Part shown: positions 3,517 to 27,250 of the stretch, one piece after another
How positions within the stretch are numbered: position 1 is the first letter of the stretch
How the letters are laid out: every line of letters begins with the position of its first letter
IMG/VR virus record: IMGVR_UViG_3300047994_000119
Coordinates: 1-28,471 of that record
From: a virus
DNA: 28,471 nt
Reading direction: 5' to 3' (one strand)
Notes under the pieces: model-generated
The model's input: the letters and a program-made list of their open reading frames with translations, nothing else
Databases searched by the model: none
What the model was told of the DNA's origin: nothing
Translations under genes and position numbers: made by a program

Positions 3517-4665
3517 TCAGAATGCGCTAAAGTCAAACAAAAGTTCGAGGTGAGCATGTTCTTTATTTGTACGAGATAAATCCCAGTTTAGAACACCTAC
3601 AAGATTTTTTACCTTTTGATCTACTATACCAGCCATCATATCTTCACTATCGAATGGTAAGTTTAAGAACCATTCCGGTAAATGAACTTCGTCGACAGGG
3701 TATGCAATACTTGATAATGTGTTCTCACTTGTTTCTTTTAGCTTGCAAACAACAATTTTTTGTCCGTCGACAATACGCATAGAATGTTGATCCATGTGCA
3801 TATCTTTTAATCTATTCCACGCAAGACTTGCTGTAACATGTCCGGGGACATGTAAATTACCTACAATCTGTCCTTTCGATTTAGCTATAGCAGCCAACTC
3901 AATTTTTTCCCGATAATGAGATAACTTATTTACGGCTCGTGGAGTACCTTGCTGCCATGGCTTCATATTTTCAAATTTTTCCTTAAACTTTTTAATTTTT
4001 TCAATAACAAAGTTTTCACCTTTATTACATAAGGTATCCAATAAGATCTCAGATAAAAATTCTTGTACAAACTTAGGAGTATCTGCTCTTTTCAAATCTA
4101 ATCCCATTGCCTTTACTTTACCGGGCTTATCACCTACATCAAGTCTAATACCATCTTTATCAAACATCAAACAAGCATAACGTTTCTTTACAATCCATAA
4201 TCCGCTTTCGGAAACTGTTTCTCGTGAACTAGCTATAACACCAGTTGATCTCTTAATTGGAACATTCAATGTAGTATAAAGAAAATCAGGAAATGTTGCT
4301 GATACTGCCTTAGCAAGTGAATTATAAGTATCAATAATGCTTTCTTTTGTCCATTCTACTTCACCTGCATCAATTTCTTTTCTTAGAACTGGATATGCTG
4401 AGAAGTAGCAGGAATTATGTAGTAAAATATTATTACCAAAGAACCAGGGCTTACTTTGATTTTTCATACCAATATCATAGACATATTCATCTTCTGCCTT
4501 GCAAACTTTTCTTACGGATTTTACCTTTGCCTTATGTAATGATATTTCCTTTTGTGGTTGAAATTTAGTAAGATAGTGCTGTACTTCTTTATATAACTCG
4601 GCAGTATCTTTTAATGGCGATAATATTAATTTCTTTAGGGCGTCTGCTAAATCTTTACTTTCCAT
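3517..4665 (-). CDS. 43: DNA polymerase gp43 C-terminal part with C-intein half
   Basis: A 382-residue protein. Residues 1-84 form a leader plus the C-terminal intein half: block F around EYVYDIG (59-65) and block G ending NNILLHN (78-84), followed by Ser85 as the +1 extein residue. From Ser85 the sequence (SCYFSAYPVL) continues polymerase motif C from the partner protein, then the thumb region. The last residues, LLFDFSAF, resemble the clamp-binding tail of T4-type polymerases. Spliced to the N-terminal protein it would give a polymerase of about 982 residues (T4 gp43 is 898). The start ATG has AAGAG 6 nt upstream and lies 9 nt after the TAA of the partner gene, in the same reading frame. 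Before splicing neither half has a complete active site. Confidence 0.85.
   Translation of the reverse strand: MESKDLADALKKLILSPLKDTAELYKEVQHYLTKFQPQKEISLHKAKVKSVRKVCKAEDEYVYDIGMKNQSKPWFFGNNILLHNSCYFSAYPVLRKEIDAGEVEWTKESIIDTYNSLAKAVSATFPDFLYTTLNVPIKRSTGVIASSRETVSESGLWIVKKRYACLMFDKDGIRLDVGDKPGKVKAMGLDLKRADTPKFVQEFLSEILLDTLCNKGENFVIEKIKKFKEKFENMKPWQQGTPRAVNKLSHYREKIELAAIAKSKGQIVGNLHVPGHVTASLAWNRLKDMHMDQHSMRIVDGQKIVVCKLKETSENTLSSIAYPVDEVHLPEWFLNLPFDSEDMMAGIVDQKVKNLVGVLNWDLSRTNKEHAHLELLFDFSAF
4414..4665 (-). other. Split intein, C-terminal half
   Basis: Residues 1-84 of the polymerase C-terminal protein. The core C-intein is about the last 40 residues, with the penultimate His83, terminal Asn84 and following Ser85 needed for splicing. 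The first ~40 residues are charged and helical and replace the place where an endonuclease would sit in a full intein. Confidence 0.8.
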
Positions 4666-4674
4666 ATAAATCTC

Positions 4675-7110
4675 TTATTCCTTTAAAATTTTAATTTTAT
4701 CTTTATCATCTACTTTTATAGATATTAATATATCCGAATCTAGAATATCTAATGGCTTTACAGAAATAAGTTTACCATCTCGTTCAACCATTACAGAATG
4801 ATCTTCTGTGACGGTAATAATATTTCCCAACTCGTCTTCAATTTCGTACAAATATTTAGATACCTTATGTCGATAGATGTATTCAATGTGTCCTAGGTAC
4901 GGTTCGTCGATTTCATCATTATATGTCATTACCATTAAATCTGGATCATAGGCATATTCTTTATCACCATCATTCCAAAATTCGTTACACCCATTAAAAA
5001 GGTCTTCAACAGTTTGTTGACCTTTTGAAGAATAATGAAGTGTAGAAGAAATTTGACTGTCTGTATCTCCGTACACAATAGATTCTCCGTAATGGTCATA
5101 GTTTCCTGTAATCATTTCATTTGTCTTCGCAGCCATATGCTTTGTAATTGTTCTGCCAGTTAATGTAGTAGATTGACCAAGTCTTTGATCAAAGAACCTA
5201 CTACCAGCATTTAATAATGCACCATAAGCCGAGTTTAAATTAATCTTCTTTACAAGCTGACGTTTATCCCAGAATCCTATAATTCTTTTTAACGCCTTTT
5301 GATCTCTATGAATTGCTTTACCATCTTTTACCATCAGGCTGTGCTGATTCATATATTGAATTACACGCTTCTTAGAACCTTCGTCGATAAGTTCTTTTAA
5401 CTTTTTAGGTTTATATACTTCGGATTCATGATATGGATTTGCTTTTATTTCTACATCAGTAATATCATCATTTGTAAATATATCATTAGGAACTTTTACA
5501 CCTTCGATTTTAGAATTATCTTCTATATCTGTATAATTTGTCATAATACCTTGTAGTATTTTACGCTCATTATACCAACGTGTTAATAGTCCTGGAATAA
5601 CACCATCGATATCTGTTCTAAATATTGTACCATTAGCACTAATACACCATGGCTGTCCACTAAAGATTAAATCACTAAGTTCTTTTCCTGTAACTTCAAA
5701 TTGCTGACCATCCTCCATATCGAGTATTAGTTTATTAGCAATATCTTTATCGTAGAAATCATTCATTTCGAGAACGTGGAATCTATCGTTCCACCAGGAT
5801 GCAAATGTATGTTTGCTACCCATCGCTTCCCACATAGCTATTTCTTCATTTGTTCTATCAAGTCTAATTTGTCCAACAATAGTCTCGGGGCTCATATTCA
5901 GAGCTCTCATAACAGATGGATACAAAGATTTCATATCAGTAGATGCTATCCACTTATGTAATCCTTTTCTTGGAGTGGCTACCCAGCCACCAGCAGCACG
6001 ATTACTTTCGTTTTCTTTACCGTGTTTTTTATCAGGGCAAATCATATTACGATTATGCGCTTCTATAATAACAGCTTGATCGGTAACTGCTACGGCACCC
6101 ATTGTTGTTTGGATAAGAACGCAGTTAGCATGAGCGATAGAATTTGCTAAGTCTACGAATTGTAATTTTTTATCAAGTTTATCTAATAATCGGGTATCTT
6201 GAATATTATATTCTAAAAACTTCTTGAAATCATCATTATACAATTCGTCCAAAGTACCTTCGTACTCGACTTTTGTTTCATTAAGTTCAATTTCTGCAAT
6301 AGAGTTTAACTTATAACTATGACGTTCTTCGTAGTTATATTTCTTATAAAGTTCGAGATAATCTACGTGTACCCGACCAATCAGATCGTATGTAGATTCA
6401 GTCTTACCGCCGCGTTCAATTTCACGAATCCTTGGTTGTTGATCCCAAAGGCACATTTTTCTTGCTTCTTGTTTTCCCAGTACTTTTTTAATTCTATTTA
6501 CAATATAAGGAATATCATAAAAAGAACTATTCCATCCACTGAGTATATCTGCATCTTCGATAACATCCATAAAAGCTTCGAGCATTTCTCCTTCTTTATT
6601 AAAGAGAACTACATTGCCGACTTCATCAGCGATAGCTTGAGCTTCTTTCCACGATAATGTGTCTGGTGGCACAGCTAGACAGATAATTTCATCAAGCCAT
6701 TGTAGATGCACGGAAATAGAAGTAATCATATTATCAGCATCTGCAGGATCTGACCAACCTGATTCTTTATCAAAACTAGTTTCGATATCGAAAAAAGCAA
6801 CATTAAGTACAGGTGCATCAACATGCTGGTAATTTTGTGCTAAACAACGAAAAATAGGATCAACATCTGTTTCCCATTTTTTTACATTACCCGATAAGGT
6901 CTTTAGAAGTTTTTGTTTTTCTGTATAGGTACGTGGCGAGATTTTCTTTACAGAATCACCGTAAATAGTCTTATGTGTACCTCTCGGATCTGATATATAA
7001 AAATGAAAGTCAGGTTGAAATTCTCGGTAAACTCTCTTGCCGTTTACTCTTTCTACTACCTTGATTGTTTCTGCTTCGCCATTTTTTTTAAAATAGGAAT
7101 CTACGTACAT
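4675..7110 (-). CDS. 43: DNA polymerase gp43 N-terminal part with N-intein half
   Basis: An 811-residue family-B replicative DNA polymerase fragment. Exonuclease motifs: DIE at 108-110 (Exo I), N194/D199 in WNSSFYD (Exo II), Y301/D305 in YNIQD (Exo III). Polymerase motif A is DMKSLYPS (392-399), motif B is KKINLNSAYG (621-630), and motif C begins YGDTD at 680-684. At Ser685 the sequence turns into an intein: about 127 residues with a block-B-like NIITVTEDH, ending at a TAA. The remaining polymerase is encoded by the next gene. The insertion point is the same YGDTD/S site used by archaeal Pol inteins, including the split PolB of Nanoarchaeum. It follows the DsbA-like gene directly, under the promoter at 7404-7432. 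Proofreading polymerase activity is expected only after trans-splicing. Confidence 0.9.
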   Translation of the reverse strand: MYVDSYFKKNGEAETIKVVERVNGKRVYREFQPDFHFYISDPRGTHKTIYGDSVKKISPRTYTEKQKLLKTLSGNVKKWETDVDPIFRCLAQNYQHVDAPVLNVAFFDIETSFDKESGWSDPADADNMITSISVHLQWLDEIICLAVPPDTLSWKEAQAIADEVGNVVLFNKEGEMLEAFMDVIEDADILSGWNSSFYDIPYIVNRIKKVLGKQEARKMCLWDQQPRIREIERGGKTESTYDLIGRVHVDYLELYKKYNYEERHSYKLNSIAEIELNETKVEYEGTLDELYNDDFKKFLEYNIQDTRLLDKLDKKLQFVDLANSIAHANCVLIQTTMGAVAVTDQAVIIEAHNRNMICPDKKHGKENESNRAAGGWVATPRKGLHKWIASTDMKSLYPSVMRALNMSPETIVGQIRLDRTNEEIAMWEAMGSKHTFASWWNDRFHVLEMNDFYDKDIANKLILDMEDGQQFEVTGKELSDLIFSGQPWCISANGTIFRTDIDGVIPGLLTRWYNERKILQGIMTNYTDIEDNSKIEGVKVPNDIFTNDDITDVEIKANPYHESEVYKPKKLKELIDEGSKKRVIQYMNQHSLMVKDGKAIHRDQKALKRIIGFWDKRQLVKKINLNSAYGALLNAGSRFFDQRLGQSTTLTGRTITKHMAAKTNEMITGNYDHYGESIVYGDTDSQISSTLHYSSKGQQTVEDLFNGCNEFWNDGDKEYAYDPDLMVMTYNDEIDEPYLGHIEYIYRHKVSKYLYEIEDELGNIITVTEDHSVMVERDGKLISVKPLDILDSDILISIKVDDKDKIKILKE
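4678..5058 (-). other. Split intein, N-terminal half (Pol motif C site)
   Basis: Residues 685-811 of the polymerase N-terminal protein. Ser1 follows YGDTD. A segment with LFN then YAYDPDL resembles the layout of the Nanoarchaeum PolB N-intein, from memory. Block B carries TVTEDH with the expected Thr and His. No LAGLIDADG or HNH domain is present, so it is a mini split intein. Confidence 0.8.
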
Positions 7111-19455: not shown

Positions 19456-20030
19456 ACTTGTTCCTCTGGCTCAGGTGGCTGTTGTTCGTCTCCTCCCTGA
19501 CCTTCCATACTTGTATTAACATCTTGCTGATCTTCTTGTGGCTGCTGCTCTTCGTCGAAAGCATCTGCAAGATCTGCGTTGGTTTGTTGTATATCTTGTT
19601 GAATGACATCATCGATTTGTTCTAATCCACGATTTATATATTTTAAAGGTAGCTCGATTGTGACTAACCAAATCTCATGTTCAGCCATCTTTGCTCTCTT
19701 AGACTCGGGATCTCTCCAATCCTGTGGACCTGTGACTTTTACTGGCTTCTTAAATATACCTTTTCTAAAGTTTACTTTAGCTCCTAATTTTGTTAGTCGT
19801 AGTCCGCCATTTGGATCAGGCATCATAGAGTAAGGATACATCCAAACTGTTTTATACCAATAACGTTTAATTTCTGGACCTTCTACAAGTTCACCAAGTA
19901 TCCAATTTTTGTAAGCAAATACTTCAGCATTGTCTAAAGTTCTTTCAAACTCGAGAAGGGTGTCCAGAATGGTGTCTCCCTTTGATATTGCTACTAAAGT
20001 TTTTTTTATGGATTCTAAATCAGTAGACAT
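19452..20030 (-). CDS. Conserved phage protein, acidic Gln-rich tail (192 aa)
   Basis: Starts at the ATG at 20030, which has AAGGA 6 nt upstream; an upstream ATG at 20051 falls inside the HNH gene without a ribosome site. The first ~135 residues form an aromatic-rich domain (AYKNWILGELVEGPEIKRYW; YKTVWMYPYSMMPDPNGG). The last ~55 are a low-complexity Gln/Glu/Asp tail. It overlaps the 251-residue gene by 4 nt. Function unknown; pairing with a probable virion protein suggests a structural or assembly role. Confidence 0.7.
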   Translation of the reverse strand: MSTDLESIKKTLVAISKGDTILDTLLEFERTLDNAEVFAYKNWILGELVEGPEIKRYWYKTVWMYPYSMMPDPNGGLRLTKLGAKVNFRKGIFKKPVKVTGPQDWRDPESKRAKMAEHEIWLVTIELPLKYINRGLEQIDDVIQQDIQQTNADLADAFDEEQQPQEDQQDVNTSMEGQGGDEQQPPEPEEQV

Positions 20031-20544
20031 ATTTTTCCTTACAATTCTCAAAATGATATTTTACCATCGATCCACCAGCACCAATTTTCGAACAATAAGG
20101 ACATTCAACTGGGATTATTTTTCTTCCCTTATGAGGATTTGCCTTTCCCTTGTTTGCTAATCCTATTTTTATCTTTGTTGATTCTTTACAAGGTCTTTTT
20201 CCAGCTTCGGAAATTAGCAACTTTGTTTCATCAGAGAATATTTGTTGTTTCATCGCTTCGGAAAATTTTCTCCTTAGCCAACCGAACATCTTATTATTTC
20301 TAACAACATTTCCACCAGAGACCGTCATCATCTTTACTGCCAATACAAGATATCTATTTTCCGGATACATCTTCACTAATAACTGATGTGCAACATAATG
20401 TTCTTCAGGAGTCAATCTAACAATATTTTCTTTATTATTTCCACCCATACATTTTGGAATAATATGATGTCTTTCATATCCTTCGTCGATATTTCGAGTT
20501 TTAGCTCGTTCTATCAACCGATTATAATGCATCTTGTAATTCAT
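20020..20544 (-). CDS. Free-standing HNH homing endonuclease
   Basis: A 174-residue endonuclease from the ATG at 20544 (GAGGG upstream; the frame extends further without support). The HNH core is RHHIIPKCMGGNNKENIVRL followed by EEHYVAH. Next come NUMOD3-like DNA-binding helices (SDETKLLISEAGK, ESTKIKIGLANKGK) and a C-terminal zinc knuckle CPYCSKIG...HFENC. Such enzymes cut alleles lacking the gene and spread by repair. A late-promoter-like box lies 17 nt upstream, and its last codons contain the ribosome site and start of the next gene, as if it had inserted between that gene and its promoter. Confidence 0.88.
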   Translation of the reverse strand: MNYKMHYNRLIERAKTRNIDEGYERHHIIPKCMGGNNKENIVRLTPEEHYVAHQLLVKMYPENRYLVLAVKMMTVSGGNVVRNNKMFGWLRRKFSEAMKQQIFSDETKLLISEAGKRPCKESTKIKIGLANKGKANPHKGRKIIPVECPYCSKIGAGGSMVKYHFENCKEKYVY

Positions 20545-20561
20545 TTTTGCCCTCTTTTGAT

Positions 20562-20569
20562 TATTTATC
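20562..20569 (-). promoter_or_regulatory. T4-type late promoter motif (GATAAATA)
   Basis: GATAAATA on the minus strand, 17 nt before the HNH start. It would transcribe the endonuclease and the following virion-type genes, and may originally have belonged to the latter. Confidence 0.55.
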
Positions 20570-20646
20570 TGTATCTGGTTACTTTTTGAAAGATTTGAAA
20601 ATAACCATAGGTATAACACTCTATATTAACTATATCAGATAAGTAA

Positions 20647-20674
20647 ATGGTATGCACAATACACGCGATACCAT
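20647..20674. promoter_or_regulatory. Inverted repeat in the phoH leader
   Basis: ATGGTAT and ATACCAT are perfect 7-bp arms around a 14-nt loop in the phoH leader, about 80 nt before the TTG start. It could be an operator or an RNA hairpin. No convincing -35/-10 pair was found nearby. Confidence 0.35.
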
Positions 20675-20753
20675 TATCGTCGTCTCTCAGGATGGGCAGT
20701 CCTTGTCCGATCCCCCTTCACACCAAAATAAATCTATCAACAGGAGTACAACC

Positions 20754-22553
20754 TTGAGCAAAAATCGTAAAATGACAGCGAAATCGCCGTCGCAATCTCG
20801 TCACACCCGTACATACGATGAACAATCAACTAATGTCGTTAAATTAGGTAATCGTAATTATAAAAAAGTCGAGATGATTCCACGTAATACAGCACAGGAA
20901 GAATACGTAGAAGCTTTGCTTGAAAAAAGAATGGTCTTCGCTGTGGGTCCTGCCGGAACAGGTAAAGCACAACCACTTCATTCTAAAATAAAGATACCAA
21001 ATGGATGGACTACAATGAATGATATTAAAGTAGGAGATAAGGTATCTACTCCAAACGGAGGGACTGCTAATGTTATCGGAATTTATCCGCAGGGTAAAAA
21101 AGAAATTTACACAATTACCTTCACTGACGGAAGAACTGCAGAGTGTTGTAAAGAACATCTATGGGAAGTATTTTATCCAGATAATTGGGGAGATAATTCG
21201 AAAATATTAAGTCTTGACGATATTATAAAGTTACAGAATAAATTTAGGAAAAAATTACAAGTTAGATTAATTAATCATGAAAATATAGATGATATTAATT
21301 TACCAATAGATCCATATTTACTCGGATGTCTACTCGGTGATGGCAATATTTCAATAAAAGGTAGAATTAGCTTTAGTTCATCAGATGTTACTATTGTGGA
21401 AAAATTAAACAAAATAATACCAGATGGCGAATTTATTCATAAATCCAATTATGATTATGTATTTAAATCCGGTGGAAAAGGATCTGGAAACAAACTAAAC
21501 AAATTTGGATCGAGATTACGAGATGAATTAAGTAATTTAAATTTATTTGGAACAAAATCTAATAACAAATTTATTCCAGAAATATATCTTAATTCATCTA
21601 AGGAACAGAAAATAAAGATGTTACAGGGATTATTAGATACAGATGGATATGCTGATAAGAAAAATAACGGATTATACTTTACGTCAGTAAGTAAAATTAT
21701 GGCTGAACAAGTACAATACCTGGTACGATCTATCGGCGGTACTGCTAAGATAACATCAAAGACACCATCATTTACATATAAAGGTATAAAGAAATATGGA
21801 CAAGTAGCCTATGATGTGAAAATTGACTATAATTGTAAAACTGATCTTGTAAGCCTAGATAGAAAGAAACAATGTCTAAAAAATAATGGACAATACATCA
21901 AAAACAATCGTATAGGAATTTCGAAGATTGAATATACATCTATTGCTGAGGCACAATGTATTATGATTGATTCTCCAGATCATCTATACATTACCGATAA
22001 TTTTGTCGTAACTCATAATACACTCTTAGCAGTTCTTCGAGCCATTAAGGCACTAAGAGAACAAGAGATTTCAAAGATTATTCTAACTCGCCCAGCAGTT
22101 AGTGTAGACGAAAAGCATGGATTTTTGCCAGGTGACCTAAATGCAAAAATGGAACCATGGACAAGACCAATCTTTGACGTATTTGAAGAATATTATGGCT
22201 TGCAGGAAACAAAGAGAATGCTAGATGAAGGTACAATCGAGATCGCCCCGCTTGGATTTATGCGTGGTAGAACATTCAAGTATTCATACATCATTGCTGA
22301 CGAAATGCAAAATGCTACACCAGATCAGACAAAAATGTTATTGACACGTATTGGTGACGGTAGCAGCATGGTCATCACAGGTGACCTAAAACAACACGAT
22401 CGTGGGTTTGATAAAAATGGTCTCAAGGATTTTCTTGAGAGACTTGCTAAAAATAATACTTGTTCTATGGCAGTCTGCACATTTAGACGTGAACATATTG
22501 AACGTGATCCGTTAGTAGCCGAAGTTCTTAAGATATACGGAGAAGACGAATAA
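20754..22553 (+). CDS. phoH: PhoH-like ATPase interrupted by an intein
   Basis: PhoH-family P-loop ATPase, common in marine and T4-like phages; its cellular role is uncertain (RNA-related or phosphate-stress ATPase). The start is taken as TTG at 20754 with CAGGAG 7 nt upstream; an upstream ATG at 20652 lacks a ribosome site. The extein gives GPAGTGK before and TLLAVLRAIKAL after the intein, rebuilding Walker A GPAGTGKT on splicing. Walker B YIIADEMQN and the conserved GDLKQHDR follow. Removing the 351-residue intein leaves about 248 residues, the usual phage PhoH size. It is the only clear plus-strand gene, ending at a terminator shared with the convergent membrane-protein gene. Without splicing the P-loop is broken and the ATPase should be inactive. 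Confidence 0.92.
   Translation: MSKNRKMTAKSPSQSRHTRTYDEQSTNVVKLGNRNYKKVEMIPRNTAQEEYVEALLEKRMVFAVGPAGTGKAQPLHSKIKIPNGWTTMNDIKVGDKVSTPNGGTANVIGIYPQGKKEIYTITFTDGRTAECCKEHLWEVFYPDNWGDNSKILSLDDIIKLQNKFRKKLQVRLINHENIDDINLPIDPYLLGCLLGDGNISIKGRISFSSSDVTIVEKLNKIIPDGEFIHKSNYDYVFKSGGKGSGNKLNKFGSRLRDELSNLNLFGTKSNNKFIPEIYLNSSKEQKIKMLQGLLDTDGYADKKNNGLYFTSVSKIMAEQVQYLVRSIGGTAKITSKTPSFTYKGIKKYGQVAYDVKIDYNCKTDLVSLDRKKQCLKNNGQYIKNNRIGISKIEYTSIAEAQCIMIDSPDHLYITDNFVVTHNTLLAVLRAIKALREQEISKIILTRPAVSVDEKHGFLPGDLNAKMEPWTRPIFDVFEEYYGLQETKRMLDEGTIEIAPLGFMRGRTFKYSYIIADEMQNATPDQTKMLLTRIGDGSSMVITGDLKQHDRGFDKNGLKDFLERLAKNNTCSMAVCTFRREHIERDPLVAEVLKIYGEDE
20967..22019 (+). other. Class 3 intein with LAGLIDADG endonuclease in PhoH
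   Basis: A 351-residue in-frame intein between GTGK and TLLA. Residue 1 is Ala instead of Cys or Ser. The class 3 signature is visible: Trp66 after the block B His (EHLW), Cys331 in block F (QCIMIDSPDHLY), and Thr as the +1 residue after VVTHN. Two LAGLIDADG helices, YLLGCLLGDG (117-126) and MLQGLLDTDG (218-227), show a complete homing endonuclease. Class 3 inteins splice through the block F Cys rather than residue 1. Confidence 0.9.
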
Positions 22554-22984: not shown

Positions 22985-23549
22985 TGAATGTATCTGACGG
23001 GAGAGTCACTATGAGGGTATCCGTCAAACAACCAAAAAAATTATTTGGATTTAACGGAAACTTTTGTCGACGGTGTCGCCACACAAACTGAAACATAGCC
23101 TTAGATACCGTTTGGGTTGATTATATCAAAGTATACCCAGTTTACTTAAAAACTTTAGGGTGCTATGGAGCCGGCATTTCTGCCCACTGTATTGTCGTTT
23201 CATCTTCAGTCATCCACGACACAGTTCTCCGGCCGATACCTCAATCACCATTCCGGAGACAAACTTTATTTTATTTACTTGAATGCACGCCTTCTCTAGA
23301 TCCTAGAGTATACGATTCCAGTATTATGTATACTGGATGCATTTGCACCGGTAACAGCCTACCGGATAGTCGCACTTTGCTTATCGCGACTTTGATTATC
23401 GAGCCCCATTCCGGACTATTCACCAGTGCAATTATTATATCGGCACACCACCCTTAACATCTGTTTGAAATGATAAGTCAATTTTGACTTATCACGGCTC
23501 TGCGTGATTGATAGAGCCTAAAATACGATTAATCTATCTTACCGTATTT
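22985..23549 (-). ncRNA. Candidate large structured RNA (hairpin-dense gene desert)
   Basis: About 700 nt between the HAD gene and the membrane-protein gene hold no convincing gene but many perfect stems. These include AAATACG/CGTATTT (23521-27/23543-49), GGCTCT/AGAGCC (23496-501/23513-18), TGATAAGTCAA with its complement (23471-94), AGTCGC/GCGACT (23368-73/23386-91), CCGGTA/TACCGG (23348-53/23360-65), CCAGTAT/ATACTGG (23318-24/23330-36), CTCTAG/CTAGAG (23294-99/23303-08), TCTCCGG/CCGGAGA (23226-32/23253-59), and TGTCGT/ACGACA (23193-98/23216-21). AATGCA/TGCATT (23282-87/23338-43) encloses two of these, and GGGTG/CACCC (23158-62/23449-53) encloses about 290 nt. Nested stems around a closing helix indicate a folded RNA. 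The strand is assumed to follow neighbouring genes. Family is not established. Confidence 0.55.
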
Positions 23550-26540: not shown

Positions 26541-26720
26541 TTATTCTCCTGAGTGTTTCTTTTTATAATTTTCCCAAAGTTTTCGTTGAGATTCAATATT
26601 TTCCTTCATTTTAATAAAATTCTCTATCGATGTACCGCTGCTAATAATATTATTCATTTCATCAACTAATTTTGAGTTTTCATTAGCAAATTCTATTTGC
26701 TCTTCCTTTGTCGGAGTCAT
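26541..26720 (-). CDS. Very small helical protein (59 aa)
   Basis: A 59-residue ORF starting MTPTKEEQIEFANENSKLVD and ending KKKHSGE. Its ATG overlaps the TGA of the upstream gene as ATGA. Its end contains the AGGAG ribosome site of the next gene. High Lys/Glu/Asn content suggests a single long helix or coiled coil. It closes what would otherwise be a gap in an overlapping operon, which is the main support. Function unknown. Confidence 0.65.
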   Translation of the reverse strand: MTPTKEEQIEFANENSKLVDEMNNIISSGTSIENFIKMKENIESQRKLWENYKKKHSGE

Positions 26721-27250
26721 TTTAGATAATCCTTTATGTTAAGTTTATACTTAATAGGATCAACTCGATGAACTCCTATTAAGTATAAACAGAATGACGA
26801 TACTGCCGATCCTCTTCCTACACCCCAGATAAATTTATTCTTTCTCATATAATCAATGAGGTATATAAACAAACGAAGAAGCATAATTAAATCTCGTTCT
26901 TCATATAATTTATATTCTTCGTTTACACGATCTATCTCTTGTTGTGTCTTACATTTATCTATAAGCCACGCATGCACATCGATTTGCTGATATACTATGG
27001 GAAATACCCATTCTTCGGCGCATTTACTATGAAAATCATCATAGGATAAAATTTCTTCTGGGTCTCCTAAAAAAGTTATAGTATCATTCAATAGTTCTGA
27101 TTGATATTTTTCATAAAGTTTTATTTCTTCATCAAAAATAACATTTAAATGACTAATATTTTTACCTTGCAATAAAAGTTCTCTAAGACCGTCACTTGTA
27201 AGTATTGCTTGACCGTACTTATTAGTTTTTATATTTTCTTTGGTTTCCAT
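26717..27250 (-). CDS. DNA polymerase III alpha-like fragment (GRGS motif protein)
   Basis: A 177-residue protein whose C-terminal part, FIWGVGRGSAVSSF then GVHRVDPIKYKL, closely follows the bacterial DNA polymerase III alpha palm segment GPGRGSAAGS...DPL.Y.L. In PolIII alpha this motif binds the triphosphate, and the catalytic Asp residues come shortly after, behind ERFLNP. Here the protein stops at KDYLK, before those Asp residues, so it cannot be a polymerase by itself. The preceding 120 residues are acidic and helical. It may be a nucleotide-binding remnant, a regulator, or the 5' part of a broken gene. The start overlaps the upstream gene by 22 nt. Confidence 0.65.
   Translation of the reverse strand: METKENIKTNKYGQAILTSDGLRELLLQGKNISHLNVIFDEEIKLYEKYQSELLNDTITFLGDPEEILSYDDFHSKCAEEWVFPIVYQQIDVHAWLIDKCKTQQEIDRVNEEYKLYEERDLIMLLRLFIYLIDYMRKNKFIWGVGRGSAVSSFCLYLIGVHRVDPIKYKLNIKDYLK

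Follow-up and report, generated by a model that had tools for sequence, protein, structure and literature searches.

The question raised by this locus is whether a hairpin-rich stretch without a gene, positions 22985-23549 of the 28,471-nt piece of viral DNA analysed here (the window), really encodes an RNA, and if so, of which kind. A first-pass annotation had claimed that the hairpins are far denser than chance would allow. We have counted 13 perfect stems (at least 6 bp, loops of 3-40 nt) in this interval, while dinucleotide shuffles contain 4.2 ± 2.1 and none of 300 reaches 13, which bears out the claim. Among the inverted repeats there is an 11-bp stem with a 2-nt loop. Along the whole contig, however, windows of 565 nt (n = 100) have a median of 7 stems, two coding windows equal the locus with 13, and the highest count, 15 stems, falls in a window starting at 23241 that overlaps the RNA. 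Since other stretches of the same contig have 11-13 stems, the stem count is not convincing by itself. The folding energy of the 320-nt core is -102.1 kcal/mol (z -4.43) on the minus strand and -79.9 kcal/mol (z -3.72) on the plus strand.

The neighbouring HAD-like gene led us to 16 related viral contigs; L006 and L016 carry a clear relative in the space that separates the HAD-like gene from a small ORF with a membrane anchor, and L003, L004, L013 and L015 apparently have coding sequence at the corresponding place, as judged by eye. Pattern scans have added L020 and L027. A profile derived from the resulting five copies matches all five at E < 1e-80, with the next best E at 0.87 among the sequences then compared. 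We have also aligned the 3' domains of the five with MAFFT, by sequence only, and derived from this alignment a covariance model of that domain, R1. A search of 21 phage records with R1 recovers all five copies and, in the L016 phage, detects a second one (E 7e-26), which fits helices P6, P7, P8 and P9 and the pseudoknot described below. A near-invariant loop pattern gives 55 stretches, of which 51 are new loci; 33 of the new loci are members by R1 (cut-off of at least 50 bits), while the remaining 18 score at most 13.3 bits or nothing. In total, there are 38 copies of related 3' domains on 36 viral contigs, window included, and several of these contigs are near-identical.

Further searches have not enlarged the family. 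A second, broader pattern, GTTGAYATAATCAAYCC, yields 85 stretches and 48 unseen loci with no member among them; the top score is 19 bits over 29 positions (E 0.012). Weak R1 matches in G001, G013, G016 and G018 (E 0.06-3.7) have all been dropped; those of G001 and G013 lie at corresponding positions in one coding gene, and that of G016 is in coding sequence. For cultured relatives we have searched 50,697 phage records by blastn, which returns nothing for the window, the L016 copy or a copy of class II (see below), and the model R2 has no match in Atu_ph07, DLP_6, C48C1 or phiM12. In bacterial genomes, a pattern scan gives 46 stretches, all among the 75 loci tested, and the lone match is L075 at E 0.33.

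About 15 helices make up the predicted fold, together with a long-range pseudoknot that shows compensatory changes and a second pseudoknot that is tentative. From 5' to 3', the order is P1, P2, P3, P4, P5 with inner hairpins, P6, P7, P8, P9 with P9.1 and P9.2, and P11 between direct repeats. The features are as follows in window coordinates, where A8 is an alignment of 30 distinct 3' domains.

22995-23456, minus strand: RNA core, a class I member, with the 5' end near 23456 and the 3' end near 22995 (profile match 23461-22990); relatives in the same neighbourhood are L006, L016, L020 and L027.
23471-23549, minus strand: three tandem hairpins 5' of the core, identified from inverted repeats and the stem count.
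23423-23449, minus strand: P1 hairpin GUGU/GCAC, covarying as GCGC/GCGC and GUGC/GCAC in class I and GCGA/UCGC in class II.
23392-23425, minus strand: P2, two short helices, with a loop GGAAUG common to the window and class II.
23368-23391, minus strand: P3 hairpin AGUCGC/GCGACU; in L016 just 2 of 6 pairs form in the given register.
23348-23365, minus strand: P4 hairpin CCGGUA/UACCGG, also found in class II.
23282-23343, minus strand: P5, AAUGCA/UGCAUU, enclosing P5a (23317-23337) and P5b (23294-23308, triloop).
23227-23258, minus strand: P6, CUCCGG/CCGGAG, with both-side changes in 6 of 6 pairs of A8.
23186-23225, minus strand: P7, with GACUGAA in its apical loop; helices 2 and 3 of A8, both-side changes in 3 of 5 and 4 of 5 pairs.
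23173-23184, minus strand: P8 hairpin with a GAAA (GNRA) loop, both-side changes in 3 of 4 pairs of A8.
23094-23167, minus strand: P9, enclosing P9.1 (ACCC/GGGU) and P9.2 (near-invariant loop AUAAUCAAYCC); helices 5-8 of A8.
23086-23092, minus strand: 3' side of the pseudoknot PK1, pairing with GACUGAA of the P7 loop (23205-23211).
23021-23057, minus strand: P11 hairpin (CCGUUAAA/UUUGACGG) with P11a, in the class I form; P11 of class II differs.
23013-23016, minus strand: 3' side (CCUC) of the tentative pseudoknot PK2, with its partner GAGG in the P6 loop (23239-23242).
22994-23073, minus strand: direct repeats flanking P11, CCGUCGA at 23067-23073 and CCGUCAG at 22994-23000, which co-vary by identity across members.

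Several details of the earlier description can be judged against this anatomy. P5, P5a and P5b correspond to the AATGCA/TGCATT stem and its two nested hairpins. The letters of the proposed outer GGGTG/CACCC closure exist, but the pairing is not conserved, and we have rejected it because relatives pair the CACCC side locally within P9.1. The RNA does lie inside 22985-23549, but its core covers only about 22995-23456; the stems at 23471-23549 are outside it on the 5' side, and by eye these three hairpins have no counterpart in the relatives. A pairing of 5' AAGG with 3' CCUU has been dropped, as it shows one-sided changes only (by eye). The P8 loop is GNRA or AAAA in several members, and P1 of class II is paired in 19 of 20 at three positions in the right register.

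We have examined covariation in several ways. With the hand-chosen helices, 471 of 481 pairs in the five sequences are standard, which is a description rather than a test since the helices were selected by eye. RNAalifold on four full-length relatives gives 85 pairs, 32 of them with both-side changes. In the sequence-only alignment of five, both-side changes occur in 20 of 38 pairs, compared with 0-4 in slid controls. For A8, 93.4% of cells are paired (shuffled 74.1%, slid 27-44), and both-side changes are seen in 29 of 38 pairs and 201 cells, against 53 cells after shuffling. A8 has been fitted to the model and leans toward it; the sequence-only alignment was not fitted. The input of A8 was 33 loci, leaving out L113, L117, L119, L122 and L139 (score identical to that of L112), L152 (at the place of L101), and L023 and L026, which come from the records of L016 and L006. 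In the 5' domain of class II, 12 of 26 pairs carry both-side changes. Covariation among metagenomic homologues, which had been proposed as a check, is thus clearly present, and the alignments show that the predicted fold has been kept by compensatory changes.

The strand can be read from the same alignments. Cells with G.U outnumber those with A.C on the modelled strand, 61 to 15 in A8 (counted without one misaligned pair, columns 87 and 126) and 61 to 1 in A9, and this excess indicates that the modelled minus strand is the RNA strand. The first-pass annotation, correct that an RNA locus is present, had missed its strand. It had also called the stretch free of coding potential, and none is conserved: the longest sense ORF ranges from 23 to 105 aa in 33 members, and its frame and place differ. 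Overall, comparative analysis identifies the hairpin-dense stretch as a structured non-coding RNA of about 450 nt on the minus strand.

PK1 joins the P7 loop and the stretch after P9. In a free longest-complement test, the value is 6.64 compared with 6.05 after shuffling, and the highest of 200 shuffles reaches 6.75. An in-register test was run afterwards on 30 of the 33 rows (18 distinct), the omitted rows being near-copies of rows used. At the inner five positions, 88 of 90 cells are paired, a value reached in 3 of 5000 shuffles (mean 80.3), and over all seven positions, 109 of 126 are paired, a value reached in none of 5000. In addition, the second copy in the L016 phage has AUCUGAA/UUCAGAU instead of GACUGAA/UUCAGUC. 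PK2 would link the P6 loop to the 3' tail and is a tentative candidate: it shows few changes, is imperfect in L006, and in some relatives adjoins or overlaps the base of P11.

The direct repeats around P11 behave differently from helices. They are identical at 5.5 of 7 positions, compared with 4.1 in shuffles and 0 of 5000 as high (28 of 33 rows, 20 distinct, the omitted rows again being near-copies), with CCCAAA appearing twice in L137 and GGCA twice in L154. Such co-variation by identity is not explained by base pairing inside the RNA. One internal partner shared by both repeats has been considered and rejected, as CCCAA of L137 lacks a complement over a span that begins about 480 nt upstream of the 3' domain and ends 170 nt downstream of it. 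This lack of a partner in or near the RNA hints at an outside partner.

The copies fall into two paralogous classes, each with a fixed gene neighbourhood. Class I (six rows: the window, L006, L016, L020, L027 and L132) lies by the HAD-like and PhoH genes. In four of the six rows it precedes a small, membrane-anchored ORF on the same strand, which we call spanin-like as a putative label, the ORF having no family match; in L020 and L027 the RNA lies directly against a convergent PhoH gene. The label HAD-like is putative as well (the phiM12 relative is annotated with NT5C, and PHROGs gives unknown function); in the window, this flanking gene is likewise on the minus strand. Class II (27 rows) comes after an endolysin-like ORF in 17 rows and a fibre-type ORF in 3, with no upstream ORF in the locus in 7. 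The endolysin-like calls are made from the look of the first residues, and the one ORF tested is phrog_315 (E 3e-44). Downstream of class II there is a convergent ORF of about 190 aa and then a baseplate-hub gene (phrog_150 in the one tested). Of the 27 class II rows, 24 have their next downstream gene on the opposite strand, as do 2 of the 6 class I rows; the class II exceptions are L137 and L112, where a small same-strand ORF comes first, and one row in which the locus ends. No partner gene is conserved beside both classes. Both classes occur together, with a single copy of each, on two jumbo-phage contigs, G014 (369 kb) and G021 (385 kb). In L016, an ORF at 6603-7091 that by eye resembles a GIY-YIG homing endonuclease (phrog_314, E 4e-5) lies directly upstream of the class I RNA.

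Upstream of class II we have observed a promoter-like element, TCAANATT-N23-27-TAAAATA, whose halves are about 25 nt apart. Eight phage records contain six matches, five within 380 nt upstream of an R1 match and one elsewhere (G035). The element is absent from G014 and G018 and has no match at the class I copies. In L116, for example, it lies about 336 nt before the R1 match, and a palindrome sometimes occurs between the halves.

Further features of the window are recorded here in their own right.

3517-7110: a DNA polymerase gene, apparently in two ORFs divided at the YGDTDS motif, both halves having intein-like ends; by eye, a possible split intein.
20020-20619: a homing-endonuclease-like ORF with a NUMOD3 motif.
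20652-22553: a PhoH gene with an intein-like, LAGLIDADG-containing insert at the Walker A motif.
26601-27000, minus strand: a stretch within ORFs that folds unusually well for its G+C content.

We have then asked whether the RNA belongs to a known family. The proposed cmscan against Rfam finds none: a scan of the whole window with Rfam 15 reports nothing in the interval at E 5, and at E 10 only RNaseP_arch (7.7 of 84 bits, E 7.1). At the gathering score no family, introns, RNase P, tmRNA and 6S included, has a match in 18 RNA-bearing loci or in 6 loci without the RNA, and L027 and L116 give only chance-level matches at E 10. GOLLD is often found near a tRNA island and forms a homo-14-mer cage. 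ARAGORN detects no tRNA and no tmRNA in the 28.5-kb window, which has no tRNA island of the GOLLD type.

GOLLD resembles the folded RNA in being a large non-coding phage RNA with many helices, a 3' part better conserved than the 5' part, and a home in very large phages. However, the GOLLD model (RF02032, gathering cut-off 150 bits) never matches the folded RNA in nine RNA-carrying records and has no match in the window record, while it scores 188-212 bits at other places in three of the nine, which serves as a positive control.

G021:C1:160815-161233: true GOLLD, by the GOLLD model.
G022:C1:169065-169531: true GOLLD, by the GOLLD model.
G026:C1:118683-119103: true GOLLD, by the GOLLD model.

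These lie 31-148 kb from the copies of the folded RNA. Since three carriers have a true GOLLD elsewhere, the folded RNA is not GOLLD. Each of these three phages thus has two unrelated ornate RNAs. ROOL (RF03087) is likewise a large ornate phage RNA of similar size range. Its model has no match at E 10 in the nine records and is silent in 14 control genomes too, so that absence is not proven by this search alone; cmscan of three members (the window, L027 and L116) does not report ROOL either (Rfam cut-off 99.1 bits). OLE RNA and HEARO are also large ornate RNAs (in part from PMC12286853), but the folded RNA matches neither in Rfam and has no partner gene conserved beside both classes. It is large, non-coding and phage-borne, with extensive conserved secondary structure and a pseudoknot, as expected of ornate large phage RNAs. 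On the comparative evidence, the best reading is an ornate phage RNA of the GOLLD/ROOL kind that is a member of neither. The suggestion of a possibly undescribed RNA has therefore held up, given covariation in related phages, no Rfam match and a distinct GOLLD in three carriers. In the open-licence literature (titles and abstract beginnings), a description of such an RNA was not found among the matches listed; it may have been reported elsewhere.

Chance clustering of hairpins, or a DNA-level structure such as an origin or packaging site, could appeal to the coding windows that equal the locus in stem number; against compensatory changes in 29 of 38 pairs, a G.U excess on one strand and better folding of the modelled strand, its probability is close to negligible. 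A ribozyme or self-processing element, intron-like or mobile, would fit the complex fold with a pseudoknot, the repeats that co-vary by identity and the homing endonuclease ORF adjoining the L016 copy. We consider it quite improbable, as no Rfam ribozyme or intron family is matched, no gene is interrupted by the RNA, and the other copies show no homing endonuclease ORF beside them.

The gene neighbourhoods raise another explanation, that the RNA acts in cis as a leader or 3' UTR element, controlling a neighbouring lysis-type gene or protecting the 3' end of the endolysin mRNA. The spanin-like ORF after class I in 4 of 6 rows, the endolysin-like or fibre gene before class II and the small same-strand ORF of L137 and L112 speak for it. 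On the other hand, the next gene is convergent in L020, L027 and 24 of 27 class II rows, the RNA is common to both classes while the neighbours are not, a pseudoknotted RNA of about 450 nt would be a large leader, and class II has a promoter-like element of its own; so we regard cis action as improbable. A monomeric trans-acting riboregulator or decoy, that is, an RNA sponge whose CYGUCAAG repeats would bind the target (a host RNA-binding protein, ribosome or RNA), would agree with repeats that co-vary as if sharing an outside target, CCCAA of L137 having no nearby complement, and with the binding of ribosomes by GOLLD in pull-downs (according to PMC12286853). Structure, however, takes up most of the RNA, and we hold this account to be unlikely, if still credible.

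The reading we prefer, to which we give a probability of roughly 50%, is that the locus encodes a large, ornate non-coding RNA that acts in trans and represents a new class found in jumbo-type phages. The analyses above show that the fold is conserved and an ORF is not, that two paralogous classes each keep to a fixed neighbourhood, and that the RNA has no match in Rfam and differs from the co-carried GOLLD. The RNA would be transcribed separately, as suggested by the nearly private promoter-like element just upstream of class II; given that a convergent gene usually follows, it would probably act in trans. It might be made late, as its neighbours are endolysin, fibre and baseplate genes. GOLLD and ROOL assemble RNA-only cages (PMC12286853), and the folded RNA may similarly be a self-folded architectural RNA, perhaps a homo-oligomer, which could assemble or sequester a partner late in infection. 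A more specific picture, which we put forward as doubtful, is a further unrelated ornate class that assembles into a defined RNA-only particle like those of GOLLD and ROOL. In some jumbo phages, several ornate RNAs would then be present as a set (one or two paralogues plus GOLLD), the paralogues possibly co-assembling or being stage-specific, and the CYGUCAAG segments would be docking sites for one shared outside partner.

To our knowledge, very few large ornate phage RNAs have been described. The functions of GOLLD and ROOL are still open, and the folded RNA would offer an independent case for asking why phages build such RNAs. The new class has 30 distinct members, occurs in two paralogous forms within one genome and co-occurs with GOLLD, and its compact size (about 450 nt) together with clear covariation makes it suited to structure work.
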